Shown: positions 8,657-15,130 of the stretch, in pieces
Numbering within the stretch: the stretch's first letter is position 1
How the letters are laid out: every line of letters begins with the position of its first letter
DNA from: a virus
DNA length: 21,068 bases
Reading direction: 5' to 3' (one strand)
Virus record (IMG/VR): IMGVR_UViG_3300006754_000241
Location: 1-21,068 of that record
Notes under the pieces: model-generated
What the model was told of the DNA's origin: nothing
Database searches by the model: none
The model's input: only the letters and a program-made list of their open reading frames with translations
Translations under genes and position numbers: made by a program

Positions 8657-9115
8657 TTATTTAATAGTATTATGTAATTTCTTGATCTGTTTCTCCAAAA
8701 CAGTTTGCATTGCTTCAAGCATAGCTAAAAAGGTAACATTTGTAAGGTCATTAATATCTGTATCAAGAAAAAATCCTTGATTCTTCTTTGTGCCTGTTGC
8801 TCCTCCTTCTAATACTTTCTCAATGTCTCCAATAGCTTTCATAAAAGAATCAGCACTATCTGCAGATTTTATACGATCTAAGATTTGTTTAGGAGATTCT
8901 TTTCCTTCTATTACTTCTATCTTTTTTGTTATCTGAACATTTAAATTCATTTTCACTTCCGCATCTTCATTTTCTAAAGCCTTTATGGCAATATCATCAA
9001 GAACTTTCTTATAGTTCTCGTATTTTTGAATACGTTGTAGTGTATTCTCAATTCTTTTCATGTCTTTCTTAACATTTCCAAAATTGTTTACATCTAATTT
9101 TAGTTTATTTGTCAT
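8657..9115 (-). CDS. Lys/Glu-rich helical protein, function unknown
   Basis: A 152-residue, mostly helical and highly charged protein. Residues 15-60 (VKKDMKRIENTLQRIQKYEN onwards) and the C-terminus (MLEAMQTVLEKQIKKLHNTI) look like coiled-coil or helical-bundle segments, with an acidic loop and a Gly-rich stretch (EGGATGTKK) between them. No catalytic motif, signal peptide or membrane segment is visible. It is followed directly by the MGMDIYG-family gene, so the two are probably translated from one message. It could be a scaffold or DNA-metabolism accessory factor, but nothing specific points to either. Confidence 0.7.
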   Translation of the reverse strand: MTNKLKLDVNNFGNVKKDMKRIENTLQRIQKYENYKKVLDDIAIKALENEDAEVKMNLNVQITKKIEVIEGKESPKQILDRIKSADSADSFMKAIGDIEKVLEGGATGTKKNQGFFLDTDINDLTNVTFLAMLEAMQTVLEKQIKKLHNTIK

Positions 9116-9178
9116 TTTATAAATGATTTAAGTATAATAAAAAACATTTACCTAGATAGATCAATTTAAGTAATTCTA

Positions 9179-9202
9179 ATGACTTTTGCAATTAAAAGTC
9201 AT
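9179..9202 (-). terminator. Perfect inverted repeat overlapping a stop codon
   Basis: ATGACTTTT and AAAAGTCAT pair perfectly around six bases, and the stop of the 117-residue gene lies inside the repeat. There is no clear T-run after it on the - strand, so it may be an RNA 3' stabiliser or processing site rather than a terminator. Confidence 0.35.
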
Positions 9203-9545
9203 CAGAATCATCTTTCATTTTATCTAGTGTATCCTTGACAAAGCTCTTTACATCTTCCGATAAAATAGCTCGTTGAAGGTCTTTCTGCATATAAAAGAAT
9301 GCACCTATTAAATGTCCTGCGAGGAACATATGTGCACTATCATTTTGGTCTATAACTAATACATCATTCAATATGAATTGAATCTGATAAGAGTTAGGGG
9401 TCTTGGAAAAAGAATTCCTAAATCTGTCATTAGTAAAGTATAATTTACTAAAGTCACTCATTTTAGTTATAAAATCATGAGTGACATCAGCATCATAACC
9501 CATTGCAGTCCAGATATCAGCTTTGGAATGGTCAAATTTTAACAT
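9192..9545 (-). CDS. Small protein of unknown function with acidic C-terminus
   Basis: A 117-residue protein that I do not recognise. It has an amphipathic helix (MSDFSKLYFTNDRFRNSFSK), a strand-rich centre (SYQIQFILNDVLVIDQ), a hydrophobic helix (AHMFLAGHLIGAFFYMQKDL) that is short for a membrane span, and an acidic tail ending KMKDDSDDF. The tail, two or three acidic residues then a final Phe, resembles protein-interaction tails of ssDNA-binding proteins, but the body does not look like an OB fold. It lies downstream of a terminator at 9575-9620, so it may have its own promoter; none is obvious. Confidence 0.7.
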   Translation of the reverse strand: MLKFDHSKADIWTAMGYDADVTHDFITKMSDFSKLYFTNDRFRNSFSKTPNSYQIQFILNDVLVIDQNDSAHMFLAGHLIGAFFYMQKDLQRAILSEDVKSFVKDTLDKMKDDSDDF

Positions 9546-10244: not shown

Positions 10245-11168
10245 GGAGATGACATCCTTAACTATCATCTCCTGGGATTCCAACCATACTACTTAATTGT
10301 TATTAACCTTTTCCCCACGTCATAGGAGGGGTTCGACATTTGTGTGCTTTAAACAGGTATGGTATCGGTATTGGCCCTGGCTTTGGGCGAGGATACTATC
10401 CACCGAAGTGGTGAAAGCCTGAGATTACGGCTTTCGTGTAGAGAATCTTTCATGGGCTAGTTCCGTATGGTTACCCTTTTATCCACCTTATTTGCATAAG
10501 GTATTTCTCTAATGACGGTCAATTGCGTTGACCACTCGTATCGTCATCATCTACTCAAATCTTACTCATAGCATGTTAAGGATGGCCGTCCCTAACATGT
10601 ATTTTCTTATTTAAATCTGCAGATCTTTGAGGGATCTGGAGACTCTCTATTCACCGAAGTGTAGAGAATTAGTCACCTTTCGATGATTGACGCTGCAAGT
10701 GTTTCTCTTTCTAGTTAATGCCTTACGGCGTTTTCCAGATTTCTCATATTTAACTGTAGTCCTTACAGAATAGCTTCATACTCTTTTGGAGCACAAAATA
10801 CTAAACTACAGTTTGCGATGCCTTCTACATCACCGTTATATACGCATACTCGCAAGAGCACCATTTATAACTGATATATACTATTATCTATCTGAAGAAG
10901 ATAGTTCATAACTATACCTACGAATTTTCCTATTGCCATTTCTGACTCAACTCTGCATGAGAATGCAAAATAGAAACTCAGGGATTTCCCCATTGTTCCT
11001 GTTGTCCGTGTGCTTAGATTGACCATCTTGCGATGGCAACATATTAGGGATCTAATCCCCCTAATACATCTTTATACTCTCTCACGAGAGTTATCGGGCC
11101 AAGCCCCATATATTTTAACTAATTGTAAGGAGTTTCAGCAATGCTGATCAACCTACGTTTTTACTAAA
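10245..11168 (-). ncRNA. Giant, highly structured noncoding RNA candidate (GOLLD/ROOL-like class)
   Basis: About 920 nt with no credible protein but many hairpins, several capped by stable loops only when read on the - strand. These include two cUUCGg loops (10400-10411, 10643-10668), GCAA on a six-pair stem (10486-10501), GUAA (10720-10729), GCAA (11023-11036) and GUGA on a six-pair stem (11076-11091). The stems at 10572-10599 and 10643-10668 also need G-U pairs that exist only on this strand. A nine-pair helix joins 10752-10760 with 10805-10813, and a perfect eight-pair hairpin at 10245-10272 marks the likely 3' end. Size, phage context and a tRNA-like neighbour recall GOLLD and ROOL RNAs; homology is unproven. 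Two hairpins would have GNRA loops on the other strand. Confidence 0.7.
10315..10347. repeat. Copy 1 of a ~34-base shared motif
   Basis: This stretch contains TCATAGGAGGGGTT and AT(T/C)TGTGTGC, shared with 12752-12785. It lies inside the giant RNA near its 3' end. Confidence 0.6.
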
Positions 11169-11174
11169 ACGTTA

Positions 11175-11182
11175 CAAAAATA
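11175..11182 (-). promoter_or_regulatory. Bacteroidetes-type -7 box before the giant RNA
   Basis: The - strand reads TATTTTTG, an exact match to the Bacteroidetes consensus TAnnTTTG. It would start transcription near 11168, just where the structured RNA begins. No convincing TTTG -33 element is visible at the expected distance, and the region is A+T-rich, so chance is possible. Confidence 0.4.
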
Positions 11183-11228
11183 TGAAATTGAATTGAATAT
11201 TGTTTAAATATTAAGCCAATTACAGTAG

Positions 11229-11314: not shown

Positions 11315-11569
11315 TTAATAATCTCTTTCCCCATATAGTCTATCATCATTAATACAAGTTCCCCAATATATATTACATATTACTACTACAAATACCCACA
11401 AAACCCATAAAGGGATTTGTTGGAGTAATACATCATGAGTTTCCCAATTAAATAAAATAGCACTTGCTACTGCAAATATCTTTCCTAGCAATAGTACAGT
11501 GAAAGGAGTAGAAACTACCAATAAAACAAATTTGAAACCATAAGCGGTTTCGGACATTCTTCTAGCCAT
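11315..11569 (-). CDS. Two-pass membrane protein (84 residues)
   Basis: The protein has two hydrophobic helices (FKFVLLVVSTPFTVLLLGKI and IPLWVLWVFVVVICNIYWG) with a short loop between them (ILFNWETHDVLLQQ) and a charged C-terminus (NDDRLYGERDY). It is the last of three small genes running leftwards, ten bases after the 31-residue peptide gene, and ends six bases before the tmRNA-like RNA. Size and topology are compatible with a holin-like or host-takeover membrane protein, but no family is recognised. Confidence 0.65.
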   Translation of the reverse strand: MARRMSETAYGFKFVLLVVSTPFTVLLLGKIFAVASAILFNWETHDVLLQQIPLWVLWVFVVVICNIYWGTCINDDRLYGERDY

Positions 11570-11690: not shown

Positions 11691-12047
11691 TCAAAAAGTT
11701 CCGACATAGACACACTTTGGTATCGTTGTTATTAGTGCGAAATCAATCCCCAGTATGGCTTTGCTATCCATACGCCTATGATAACGGAACTCTTTGTCTA
11801 TCTCAGATATTATTTTCATATCGTATACAATCAAGTATCTAGATAGGAATATAATTCTATCTGTTGTGATAGATATAATGATACTTATAAACAGCGTTTG
11901 TATCATTGACAGGCCTATTGCTGTTATCCTGCTTGTTGTTACATTTGTTTCAGAGTATACACCCTTACTAAACCCAATACACGGAAGTCGAATGGGACTA
12001 AGACGGTTGTAACTTATTGGAATTATAAAATAAAGCAGTTTAGCCAC
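11691..12047 (-). CDS. Possible 118-residue hydrophobic protein with a GTG start
   Basis: The frame begins GTG GCT AAA CTG and has hydrophobic segments at residues 4-11 and 44-68 (ITAIGLSMIQTLFISIIISI). A charged part (MKIISEIDKEFRYHRRMDSK) and another apolar stretch (AILGIDFALITTI) follow. The A+T-rich codons and membrane-like profile fit the two small genes downstream. The start codon lies inside a hairpin (AAAGCA...TGCTTT), which may limit translation. An internal ATG at residue 48 is an alternative. Part of the reading frame could be fortuitous next to the structured DNA upstream, so confidence is moderate. Confidence 0.45.
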   Translation of the reverse strand: MAKLLYFIIPISYNRLSPIRLPCIGFSKGVYSETNVTTSRITAIGLSMIQTLFISIIISITTDRIIFLSRYLIVYDMKIISEIDKEFRYHRRMDSKAILGIDFALITTIPKCVYVGTF

Positions 12048-12203
12048 TTGCTTTAGGTGATGATGTTTATAATGTCAATCCCTGACATAGTGTGATGATT
12101 TACAAAGCCACTAAACTTTGAGTAAAAATATTTTATACATTCTAATTCTGTTACTAGCAGAGAATGTGCGTCTTCATGTTAATCACGCAAGCCTTAGTTT
12201 TAA

Positions 12204-12553
12204 CAGATAGAGTGAAGATAAATCTTTTTCTTTCTTTTTGCAATGACCCTGGTACTCACTGATCAAGTGGATCTCTCACAGGTTTTCATATAAATAGACA
12301 ACCAGTCTAATCAGTCCTTGTCAAGGTGAACATCTGATTTGCGGGAATCGAACCCTACCATATCTATACTAGTCAAAGAAATACTAAATGATTATATCTT
12401 CTCTATCTGTAGGACCTTTTTAACGTGCGCCCTAACACTTGAATATGTTTCTCTCCCATATTCTAGGATTACATCATAAGAGTACTATAAGCTTAGTCTA
12501 GACCCTGACTTCCTTATAACTGTAGGTTCATCACCCCTATATACTCTTATGAT
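12204..12553 (-). ncRNA. Second structured RNA candidate (~350 nt) with a T-loop-like element
   Basis: A perfect 12-pair stem joins 12473-12484 with 12542-12553. A seven-pair hairpin (GAATATG/CATATTC) lies at 12441-12463. A long-range helix joins 12204-12224 with 12390-12409: 9, 6 and 4 pairs separated by small bulges. Inside it, the - strand carries a T-arm-like GGG-TTCGATT-CCC at about 12341-12356. It is followed by AATCAG, a 19-base segment containing a CCTTG-A-CAAGG hairpin, and CTGATT. No protein is credible. The - strand is assumed from the T-loop motif and its neighbours. I cannot match it to RNase P, a group I intron or a normal tRNA. The exact ends are unknown. Confidence 0.55.
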
Positions 12554-12619
12554 TTCTTGAGTTGTTAACTCCTTTTACGGTCCTTACATCACCAAAACAA
12601 TAAGGTGAACGCCTCTGAA

Positions 12620-12832
12620 TTACCATAATTGGCTATATATGTTCCCATTAAATGGTAGACATACATTGGTGTTTAACGCCTTAAAAATGCGCTGGATTAG
12701 CTCCCTCTCATCCTTGGAAACACCACCAAGAACGTGCAGAACTCTATCCTGCCATCTCATAGGAGGGGTTAGACGATCTGTGTGCCCAGAGTGAGTGTTG
12801 TTTCTGTGAGCGTTAGCGGTTGTGGGAGCCAT
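12620..12832 (-). CDS. Doubtful 70-residue reading frame
   Basis: The frame starts MAPTTANAHRNN and ends YSQLW. Its C-terminal half (GGVSKDERELIQRIFKALN) looks like a plausible helix, which is the main reason to list it. Against it stand the lack of a ribosome-binding site, the position beside structured RNA, and the fact that the segment encoding HTDRLTPPMRW is a nucleotide motif repeated inside the giant RNA. It may be a decayed gene. An extension to 12952 adds Arg/Ser-rich sequence from the repeat region and is not credible. Confidence 0.25.
   Translation of the reverse strand: MAPTTANAHRNNTHSGHTDRLTPPMRWQDRVLHVLGGVSKDERELIQRIFKALNTNVCLPFNGNIYSQLW
12752..12785. repeat. Copy 2 of a ~34-base shared motif
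   Basis: It shares TCATAGGAGGGGTT and AT(T/C)TGTGTGC with 10315-10347 in the same orientation, about 2.4 kb away. Here it lies outside the giant RNA, in the G+C-richer region and inside a doubtful reading frame. Confidence 0.6.
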
Positions 12833-12904
12833 AACATTTACGATAACGGAGACACGGCTACATCTTGAAGAACATTTGTCGATACCGTTTCCCCCTTTCA
12901 CGTA

Positions 12905-13035
12905 ATACAGTGAGCGAAGCGAACTATAAGCTCGTCTCACGTAGTGAGACACCTTTATGTGATACGGCTATGTAATACGGCGACGAAGGAGCGAATCACT
13001 CATAAGACCGTCGAGCGTAAGCGAGACACCTTTTT
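12905..13035. repeat. GAGCGA-type low-complexity cluster, copy 1
   Basis: The + strand has degenerate repeats such as GTGAGCGAAGCGAAC, GAAGGAGCGAATCAC and GAGCGTAAGCGAGAC, plus the palindrome GTCTCAC-GTA-GTGAGAC. The same vocabulary recurs at 14795-15130. Such G/A/C-rich short-period repeats are unlike the A+T-rich surroundings. No protein product is credible in either direction. Confidence 0.5.
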
Positions 13036-13830
13036 AAGTTACCTACAGCAAGAGGTTGGAATGCTCTCTTTGTAGGATTACAGATGATAGGATCAAAACA
13101 AGCACTACAGTCCAACAGCCTCAAGCTCTGTATCTGTGCTAAAAATCAATCACTATCTATAAGCCCGTCCTCTGTTAAGGCTCATGCTTTTCGTTAAACA
13201 GAATCGTTACCCATAGCCGTTATCTCTAGTCAGTACCACAAATGGGTAATGAGTAAAGTCCAAGTTTTGTACACTAACACGGTTGTGTTTTTGTCCTTGG
13301 TTTACAGTCTATCCGTGTATATCTGCAAGTGGTACGTACTCTCGAATGGAGAATGCCCGTTAGCTACACGACTATGGATGCGAATTCTGGATAGGAGGTA
13401 TTGTATTGCCCCTCCTGTACAGGCTTTGTAAGAAGGATAACGGTCTGTTTCAGCAAACAGCTAATGATATGTCTATCAAACCGAAATCCTATGATGTCGT
13501 GTGCCCTCGGACCTAGTCTCCCTATGGAGTACGTCAACGGCTTTTTGGCGAGGGACTAGAGACTTACGCACTTTTGTCGGCTCTAATAACACACATCAGT
13601 ATATGTTCTTCACTCTCCCCGAAGGGGACAGACCAAAAAAGAAAGGTTCGTGTTTATTCGTTTCGCACCTGTTATCAGCAGGGAAAGGAAAAACGGTCTG
13701 ATGACGCAAGTGGGAAGAACACTCACGCCAATAAATAGTAGGAGTTTGAAATCTGCGTGCTTTAGCACGAGAAGCAGGCGTAAACGAAGTGTCGCCTTGC
13801 ACATAGGAGCCTATGTTACCACGGATTCTT
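13036..13830. other. Gene-free, structure-rich DNA in the G+C-richer block
   Basis: Several short open frames exist on both strands but none has protein-like composition or a start signal. Instead there are hairpins: a two-part stem at 13260-13300 (CCAAG...AACAC-GGTT-GTGTT...CTTGG), CTGTTT-CAGC-AAACAG at 13445-13460, and a CCCC/GGGG hairpin near 13616-13627 with a UUCG loop on the - strand. Two interleaved six-base pairings are also present: CCCTCG 13504-13509 with CGAGGG 13549-13554, and CTAGTC 13513-13518 with GACTAG 13554-13559. They would make a pseudoknot or two alternative folds. It may be a further structured RNA or decayed DNA. Confidence 0.4.
13734..13757. repeat. Copy 1 of a 24-base repeat (AATAGTAGGAGTT...)
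   Basis: AATAGTAGGAGTT is followed by NGAANTCTGNG in both copies (other at 14764-14787). In both cases a short CG-rich segment follows (here CGTGC-TTTA-GCACG). Confidence 0.55.
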
Positions 13831-13831
13831 C

Positions 13832-14137
13832 CTATCTCGTGGTTTCGGTAAAACAAGCCGTTAGTGCATCAGATAAAGGATCTAGATGCAGCCAATGTTT
13901 GTCTTCACGAAGAACGTAGATTGCTTGAATATGTTTGATGGTCGCCTTAACAAAGTCAAGCGTTCCGTCTTCATCTTCAAGAATCTTATACCCCCAATAG
14001 GTATCGTCTTCGATATTACCTGTCCCTGAATCACGCATTATACGTAACGTATCGGGATTAAAATACGTTAAATTACCACCACCAAATACCAAGGTAGTAT
14101 CATAAAACCACTTGTCTTCTTGCATAAGCATAGGCAC
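13832..14137 (-). CDS. Acidic protein of unknown function (~101 residues)
   Basis: The protein has normal globular composition: KWFYDTTLVFGGGNLTYFNP, then RIMRDSGTGNIEDDTYWGYK, IKHIQAIYVLRED. It is acidic and aromatic, predicted mostly beta, and I do not recognise it. Codons are richer in G and C than in the rest of the left block, like those of the next gene upstream. The start at 14137 or an in-frame ATG three codons later are both possible; a stable hairpin ends about 12 bases before it. It lies downstream of the 129-residue acidic-tailed gene. Confidence 0.65.
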   Translation of the reverse strand: MPMLMQEDKWFYDTTLVFGGGNLTYFNPDTLRIMRDSGTGNIEDDTYWGYKILEDEDGTLDFVKATIKHIQAIYVLREDKHWLHLDPLSDALTACFTETTR

Positions 14138-14659: not shown

Positions 14660-14763
14660 TATCCCTCAACCCAATACGGGCGACTAGGGGCACTGACCTT
14701 CCCTGCAAAGGGCGAATTCCACGTAAGGCTGACCGTGGACACATATCCAATGCATGTGCAATG

Positions 14764-14787
14764 AATAGTAGGAGTTAGAATTCTGTG
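14764..14787. repeat. Copy 2 of a 24-base repeat (AATAGTAGGAGTT...)
   Basis: Same pattern as 13734-13757, in the same orientation about 1 kb away, upstream of the first leftward gene. A weaker relative (TATAGTAGGAATTC) lies near 14249. Confidence 0.55.
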
Positions 14788-14794
14788 CGACGAG

Positions 14795-15130
14795 CTTGCG
14801 AGGAGCAAGAGCGAACGCAGTGAGCGATGAGCGAGTGAGTCAATGAGTGATGTATATGCGTAATCAGATATAAAGCAAGCGTCACGCACTAGCGTGCAAT
14901 GACCGAAGGATCATTGAGCATCACAACTTGTTGTGTGCTTTATATGTGATGAGCATCATCAACGAGTGACGAAGGAGCGACAAGCGAACGGAGTGAGCGA
15001 GTGAATAACTTTAATGCAGCGTCACACAAAGGAGCGAAGCGAGTGGTAGTGTGCATCGAACGCAGTGAGATGAGCTTCAATGCTTGCATTGTGCATTAAA
15101 TGTTCTGAACGAAGAGAATGTAGTGAGCTT
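14795..15130. repeat. GAGCGA-type low-complexity cluster, copy 2
   Basis: The + strand repeats short units such as GAGCGAACGCAGTGAGCGA, GAAGGAGCGACAAGCGAACG, GGAGCGAAGCGAGTGG and CGAACGCAGTGAGATGAGC. Small palindromes are interspersed: GCACGCTAGTGCGTG (- strand), CAATG-CTTG-CATTG, CACAACTTGTTGTG. It lies between the two divergent gene blocks and shares its vocabulary with 12905-13035. It could be an origin- or regulation-associated repeat, or simply slippage-expanded DNA. No protein is credible. Confidence 0.55.

Follow-up and report, generated by a model that had tools for sequence, protein, structure and literature searches.

A divergent GOLLD RNA next to a message-less tmRNA in a crAss-like phage

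Phage genes and RNA elements of the locus

The viral record IMGVR_UViG_3300006754_000241 was analysed over a stretch of 21,068 nucleotides (the window), in which genes for a terminase, a DNA polymerase, a ribonucleotide reductase and an endolysin-like protein place a GOLLD RNA among phage genes. The large subunit of the terminase is 35-38% identical to those of crAss-like and Flavobacterium phages, which makes a host among the Bacteroidota likely; the phage is crAss-like. BLASTN comparison of the locus with named phages gave no match. The elements with which this report is concerned are the following:

11315-11569, minus strand: ORF of 84 aa, hydrophobic and membrane-like, from the ORF list; a similar ORF lies near the mini-tmRNA of the related record L006
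11226-11308, minus strand: mini-tmRNA of 83 nt, the tRNA-like domain of tmRNA only, with G3:U70 and CCA not encoded (Rfam RF00023, covariance model R1)
11175-11182, minus strand: TATTTTTG, candidate Bacteroidetes-type -7 promoter box, kept in L006 and in the related record L002
10245-11168, minus strand: GOLLD RNA, whole predicted transcript of about 0.92 kb (Rfam match inside, fold z -7.9, covariation)
10814-11118, minus strand: 5' domain of GOLLD, outside the Rfam model (alignment A4 of six relatives)
10416-10813, minus strand: conserved 3' region of GOLLD (RF02032 positions 1-416, 213.9 bits)
10245-10415, minus strand: 3' extension past the Rfam model, ending in a terminal hairpin at 10245-10272 (sequence; compare L006 and L142)

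Positions 10245-11168 hold no convincing gene: as an earlier sequence-only reading had remarked, about 920 nt are gene-free, the longest listed ORF wholly within them having 53 aa and stop-free runs on both strands reaching 68 codons at most. The ornate minus-strand fold which that reading described is borne out by a predicted energy of -280.7 kcal/mol against a mean of -224.0 kcal/mol in dinucleotide shuffles (z -7.9; none of 20 equalled it), and when both strands of the entire window were scanned at 200-nt steps, the strongest local fold fell at 11001-11200 on the minus strand (z -6.0). Its two UUCG loops on that strand (C(UUCG)G at 10654-10659 and 10403-10408), its four GNRA loops on good stems (11082-11085, 11028-11031, 10678-10681 and 10492-10495) and its 3' terminal hairpin (GGAGATGA/TCATCTCC, 10245-10272) are all present, and a fifth, weaker GNRA loop lies at 10939-10942.

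The Rfam search that the sequence-only reading had proposed identifies the RNA: GOLLD (RF02032) matches 10416-10813 on the minus strand from model position 1 to 416 of 416 at 213.9 bits (curated cut-off 150, E 1e-59). GOLLD is the sole match of its class in the Rfam scans, which agrees with the suggested membership in the GOLLD/ROOL class; ROOL, OLE and HEARO, which are likewise large ornate RNAs (ROOL being, in addition, a cage-forming RNA of phages that is frequently close to tRNAs), have no match in the window either at the cut-off or at E up to 1. The further suggestion of a possibly new family gives way to a divergent member of a known one. A new giant RNA family merely analogous to GOLLD is scarcely credible, for although the score of 214 bits is low beside the 260-320 bits of most GOLLD relatives found, and the RNA bears its own 3' extension, the match spans the full model at E 1e-59 and the relatives align across both domains. 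Sub-threshold Rfam matches (Chlorobi-1, and snoRNA families within 11.6-15.6 kb) were disregarded.

The env-38 GOLLD, the structure of which has been solved, is a hollow RNA cage of 14 molecules (PMC12286853). With GOLLD as known from RF02032 and env-38 (PMC12286853) the RNA of the window shares a full-model 3' region, a separately folding variable 5' domain, a linker between the two, its place in a phage genome and a total length above 800 nt; it differs in its 5' domain, about 50% identical to that of the nearest other clade, in about 170 additional nt at its 3' end, and in the presence of a mini-tmRNA with no canonical tRNA in the window. The variable linker lies close to where the 3' region begins and is gapped, unpaired and A-rich (model positions 67-137; also columns 420-490 of A4). 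About 170 nt follow the Rfam model in the lineage of the window, tRNA-like elements occupying the same place in L142 and L143; the 3' extension of L006 has another sequence that again ends in a terminal hairpin, and the form found in the window was not seen in L142.

In Bacteroidetes the -7 promoter box has the consensus TAnnTTTG. The sequence TATTTTTG at 11175-11182 on the minus strand fits this box, and TATTTTTGTA is retained in L006 despite divergence of the surrounding leader and flanks. As a bare motif, TAnnTTTG shows no enrichment across the window (27 copies against 25 expected), and no clear -33 element was seen at the candidate GOLLD promoter. GOLLD is probably transcribed from this candidate promoter of its own, of the host (Bacteroidota) type, in line with the promoter-like site that the sequence-only reading had reasonably proposed; its transcript, of about 0.92 kb, is predicted to begin near 11168 and to end at 10245, the 5' end being placed by the TATTTTTG box and the 3' end by the terminal hairpin. 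One promoter common to the mini-tmRNA and GOLLD was considered and rejected, since the candidate -7 box sits between them.

The mini-tmRNA lies about 45-130 nt upstream, outside the coordinates of the sequence-only reading, which does not mention it. It matches Rfam tmRNA (RF00023) at 51.8 bits (cut-off 47), both ends of the model falling within 83 nt, and scores 82.2 bits with model R1, which was built partly from the same sequence. A 7-bp acceptor stem with G3:U70, a tmRNA D-loop lacking a D-stem, and a T-arm are present, and a short stem-loop stands in place of the mRNA-like domain, about 18 nt replacing 310 model positions; because the mRNA-like domain with its tag frame and pseudoknots is missing, the element was not classified as a full tmRNA. 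ARAGORN misses it and calls no canonical tRNA in the whole window, so that the proximity to tRNAs noted by the sequence-only reading for RNAs of this class does not extend here to canonical tRNAs, the neighbour being a tmRNA-like element. As a BLASTN query the mini-tmRNA returned fragments only.

The mini-tmRNA begins 6 nt past the stop codon of the 84-aa ORF, for which Pfam has no match, on the far side of the candidate GOLLD promoter, and the two are probably on one transcript. It is kept in L002 and, at 97.6% identity, in L006, where the genes are ordered otherwise and the DNA on either side is in good part divergent; it is therefore a separate unit. A fixed order of mini-tmRNA and GOLLD was rejected on account of the different arrangement in L006, where the mini-tmRNA is more than 1 kb upstream of GOLLD with ORFs in between. 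Confidence is high for what the GOLLD RNA and the mini-tmRNA are, as distinct from what they do.

Relatives and covariation of the GOLLD RNA

Pattern scans of IMG/VR followed by family searches yielded 56 further records with GOLLD above the cut-off, five of which (L002, L005, L006, L007/L142 and L009/L143) constitute the low-scoring lineage of the window. The Rfam model covers the 3' region only, and the 5' domain was therefore tested separately in the six-member alignment A4, in which this domain is 50-56% identical between the clade of the window and the others. Of the predicted pairs, 93.3% persist there, and two-sided changes are found in 36 of 83; in controls with the partners slid by 1-3 columns, pairing falls to 37-49% and two-sided changes to 4-12 pairs. 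The structure was predicted from A4 itself, which is somewhat favourable to it, but the margin over the controls is large. Compensatory changes far above slid controls occur in both GOLLD domains. The sequence-only reading had set conserved reading frames against compensatory base changes as the comparison to make among homologues; they show the latter and no reading frames, and its interpretation as RNA survives. The analysis thus establishes that the RNA belongs to the GOLLD family, which strand encodes it, how its domains are laid out and that its structure is under selection. Record L269, which contains a distant homologue of the GOLLD-adjacent gene, has neither GOLLD nor a mini-tmRNA in the sequence examined.

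A family of mini-tmRNAs in phages

A first, stricter pattern, with the acceptor bases included, matched 14 viral contigs, of which 13 have mini-tmRNAs and one a normal tmRNA. Applied to 257 Gb of genomes of bacteria and archaea, the same pattern gave no genuine mini-tmRNA, the single match (L101) being rejected because its stems are not formed. From 14 sequences the covariance model R1 was constructed. A second pattern, in which the acceptor bases were left free, matched at least 120 stretches of viral contigs, and R1 confirmed at least about 109 mini-tmRNAs in viral contigs, at least 87 of them distinct (loci L014-L025 and L144-L259). An alignment of 71 distinct sequences, fitted to the model, has 96.8% of its cells paired and 407 two-sided changes, compared with 122 in shuffles. 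Among the matches listed, 86 of 87 distinct mini-tmRNAs have G3:U70, whereas compensated variation is seen at acceptor pairs 4-6. G3:U70 was no part of what the second pattern demanded, although R1 favours it mildly. Tag reading frames, even ultra-short ones, are not above shuffles in the family. No SmpB gene was found in 49 mini-tmRNA records, many of which are fragments, and this fits, if weakly, use of the SmpB of the host.

Seven cultured Streptomyces phages (LuckySocke, GiJojo, pSt2308, Shaeky, BRock, Alone3 and Riptide) have mini-tmRNAs (L026, L027 and L262-L266), located among tRNA genes and without tmRNA annotation in the records. Five other mini-tmRNA loci (L015, L020, L021, L022 and L024) contain type II hammerhead ribozymes.

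Mini-tmRNAs form a large, almost unreported family in phages; no report of a wider family of phage tmRNAs consisting of the tRNA-like domain only was found in the open-access literature searched. One phage with such a tmRNA, mycobacteriophage DS6A, is named in tmRNA surveys of 2014 and 2025 (PMC4131195; PMC11915505). The DS6A molecule, likened here by description only, resembles the mini-tmRNAs in having little beyond the tRNA-like domain and in belonging to a phage (PMC4131195; PMC11915505), whereas the present family involves other host groups and comprises at least 87 distinct sequences. The tmRNAs of mitochondria and plastids that have no coding sequence also lack a tag reading frame, two plastid forms being only about 65 bp, but they are organellar, and the mitochondrial genes are usually permuted (PMC11915505). 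Standard phage tmRNAs (for example L019) have the identical type of tRNA-like domain with G3:U70 and differ in possessing pseudoknots and a tag frame within about 330-360 nt. A permuted tmRNA is present in the crAss-like phage crAssphage cr124_1 (L267 571-806, Rfam RF04321, 63.3 bits).

Possible roles and association of the two RNAs

The mini-tmRNA is probably cut from a message by tRNA-processing enzymes and, to judge from G3:U70, probably charged with alanine; it would probably bind the SmpB of the host and EF-Tu and enter stalled ribosomes. On balance we lean towards the view that, being message-less, it blocks or short-cuts trans-translation. A similar molecule, consisting of the tRNA-like domain only and chargeable or not, reportedly inhibits the tmRNA of E. 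coli, possibly through titration of SmpB (PMC4131195; PMC11915505, citing Mao et al. 2009). It counts against simple titration of SmpB that G3:U70, though near-invariant, would be unneeded for it, the uncharged domain being reported there as inhibitory too.

The near-invariance of G3:U70 suggests that alanine charging matters beyond titration of SmpB, and it makes a serious rival of rescue without a tag, in which the alanine-charged mini-tmRNA would accept the stalled peptide and release it with no degradation signal, thereby sparing phage proteins. The mitochondrial tmRNAs without a coding sequence, which are thought useful there (PMC11915505), are in keeping with such a role, but the sole experiment reported in the two surveys (PMC4131195; PMC11915505) is one of tmRNA inhibition, and we consider this rival unlikely.

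Lower still is the probability that the tmRNA-like and tRNA-like elements near GOLLD serve mainly in processing, as sites where tRNA-processing enzymes cut and so trim the ends of GOLLD. GOLLDs are often near tRNAs, and the tRNA-like elements of L142 and L143 directly follow the 3' region, as this explanation would have it; in the window, however, a candidate promoter separates the mini-tmRNA from GOLLD, and in L006 more than 1 kb containing ORFs does so. An integration-site remnant or decayed tmRNA is very improbable: tmRNA genes are common sites of phage integration, and the Rfam tmRNA match in the window exceeds its cut-off by only 4.8 bits, but an integration site would retain one end of the gene only, the 71 distinct sequences covary strongly in both halves, and L006 conserves 97.6% of the element amid much diverged flanking DNA.

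By homology to env-38, the GOLLD RNA of the window is predicted to assemble into a hollow cage with the disordered linker inside. Other GOLLDs rise in expression at lysis, were recovered in ribosome pull-down, and have tRNAs in some of their linkers; GOLLDs are often near tRNAs, and ribosomes are reported to bind them (PMC12286853). These tRNAs in linkers, the reported binding of ribosomes and the adjoining mimic of a ribosome-rescue RNA are the grounds for proposing, tentatively and with chances clearly below even, that the target of the cage during infection is the translation machinery, either by holding or shielding phage RNAs of the tRNA type or by binding ribosomes.

The GOLLD RNA and the mini-tmRNA share a locus in the lineage of the window. 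In G080 and G125 a mini-tmRNA stands first in a tRNA island, for which 28 tRNAs were called in L217; about 6 kb on, on the same strand, lies a GOLLD-like RNA (G080 8961-9417, plus strand, 70.3 bits; G125 13351-13807, plus strand, 66.7 bits; E <1e-18), divergent and under the curated Rfam cut-off while spanning the full model. Co-occurrence therefore extends to two unrelated phage lineages, whereas most mini-tmRNA records listed have no GOLLD and most GOLLD loci have no mini-tmRNA. Since both RNAs occur preferentially in phages with many tRNAs, the link may be explained by a shared neighbourhood, and the co-occurrence is only suggestive.

Taken as a whole, the proposal would be that many phages encode tmRNAs of about 80 nt, lacking a message and chargeable with alanine, which seize or block trans-translation of the host, and that some, including the phage of the window, pair them with a GOLLD cage RNA in a programme directed at host ribosomes and tRNAs; we rate this combination as plausible and a little short of an even chance. 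The mini-tmRNA class is the more unusual and the more testable of the two outcomes. It turns a single curiosity (DS6A) into a widespread class of phage RNA with a near-invariant alanine identity element, and makes inhibition or hijacking of trans-translation by phages directly testable, also in the cultured Streptomyces phages. GOLLD is among the largest structured RNAs of bacteria and phages, and a divergent member next to an RNA of the ribosome-rescue type is a concrete lead.

Other structured elements were observed nearby. A tRNA-like minihelix of acceptor and T-arm directly follows the GOLLD 3' region in L142 (3703-3745), and in L143 its place is taken by a longer, tmRNA-like form that has G3:U70 (2254-2354; R1 17.1 bits, a weak match); L143 also has a pistol ribozyme near GOLLD (569-638). 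An element of about 60-110 nt, 86-91% identical among its copies, occurs in the window (12554-12617, minus strand), in L142 (about 1860-2000) and in L143 (just upstream of 1513); it seems to be a separate RNA with a terminator-like hairpin end in L142, and directly precedes the GOLLD 5' domain in L143. The region 11700-13830 of the window, where plausible genes are almost absent over about 2 kb and GC is raised, has low local folding energies at 12401-12600 and 13601-14000 and possibly contains further structured RNAs; a lone T-arm motif lies at 12343-12355 on the minus strand. The non-coding stretch 14700-15110 contains repeats of a short hairpin motif rich in GC (CGCTTCGCTC type).
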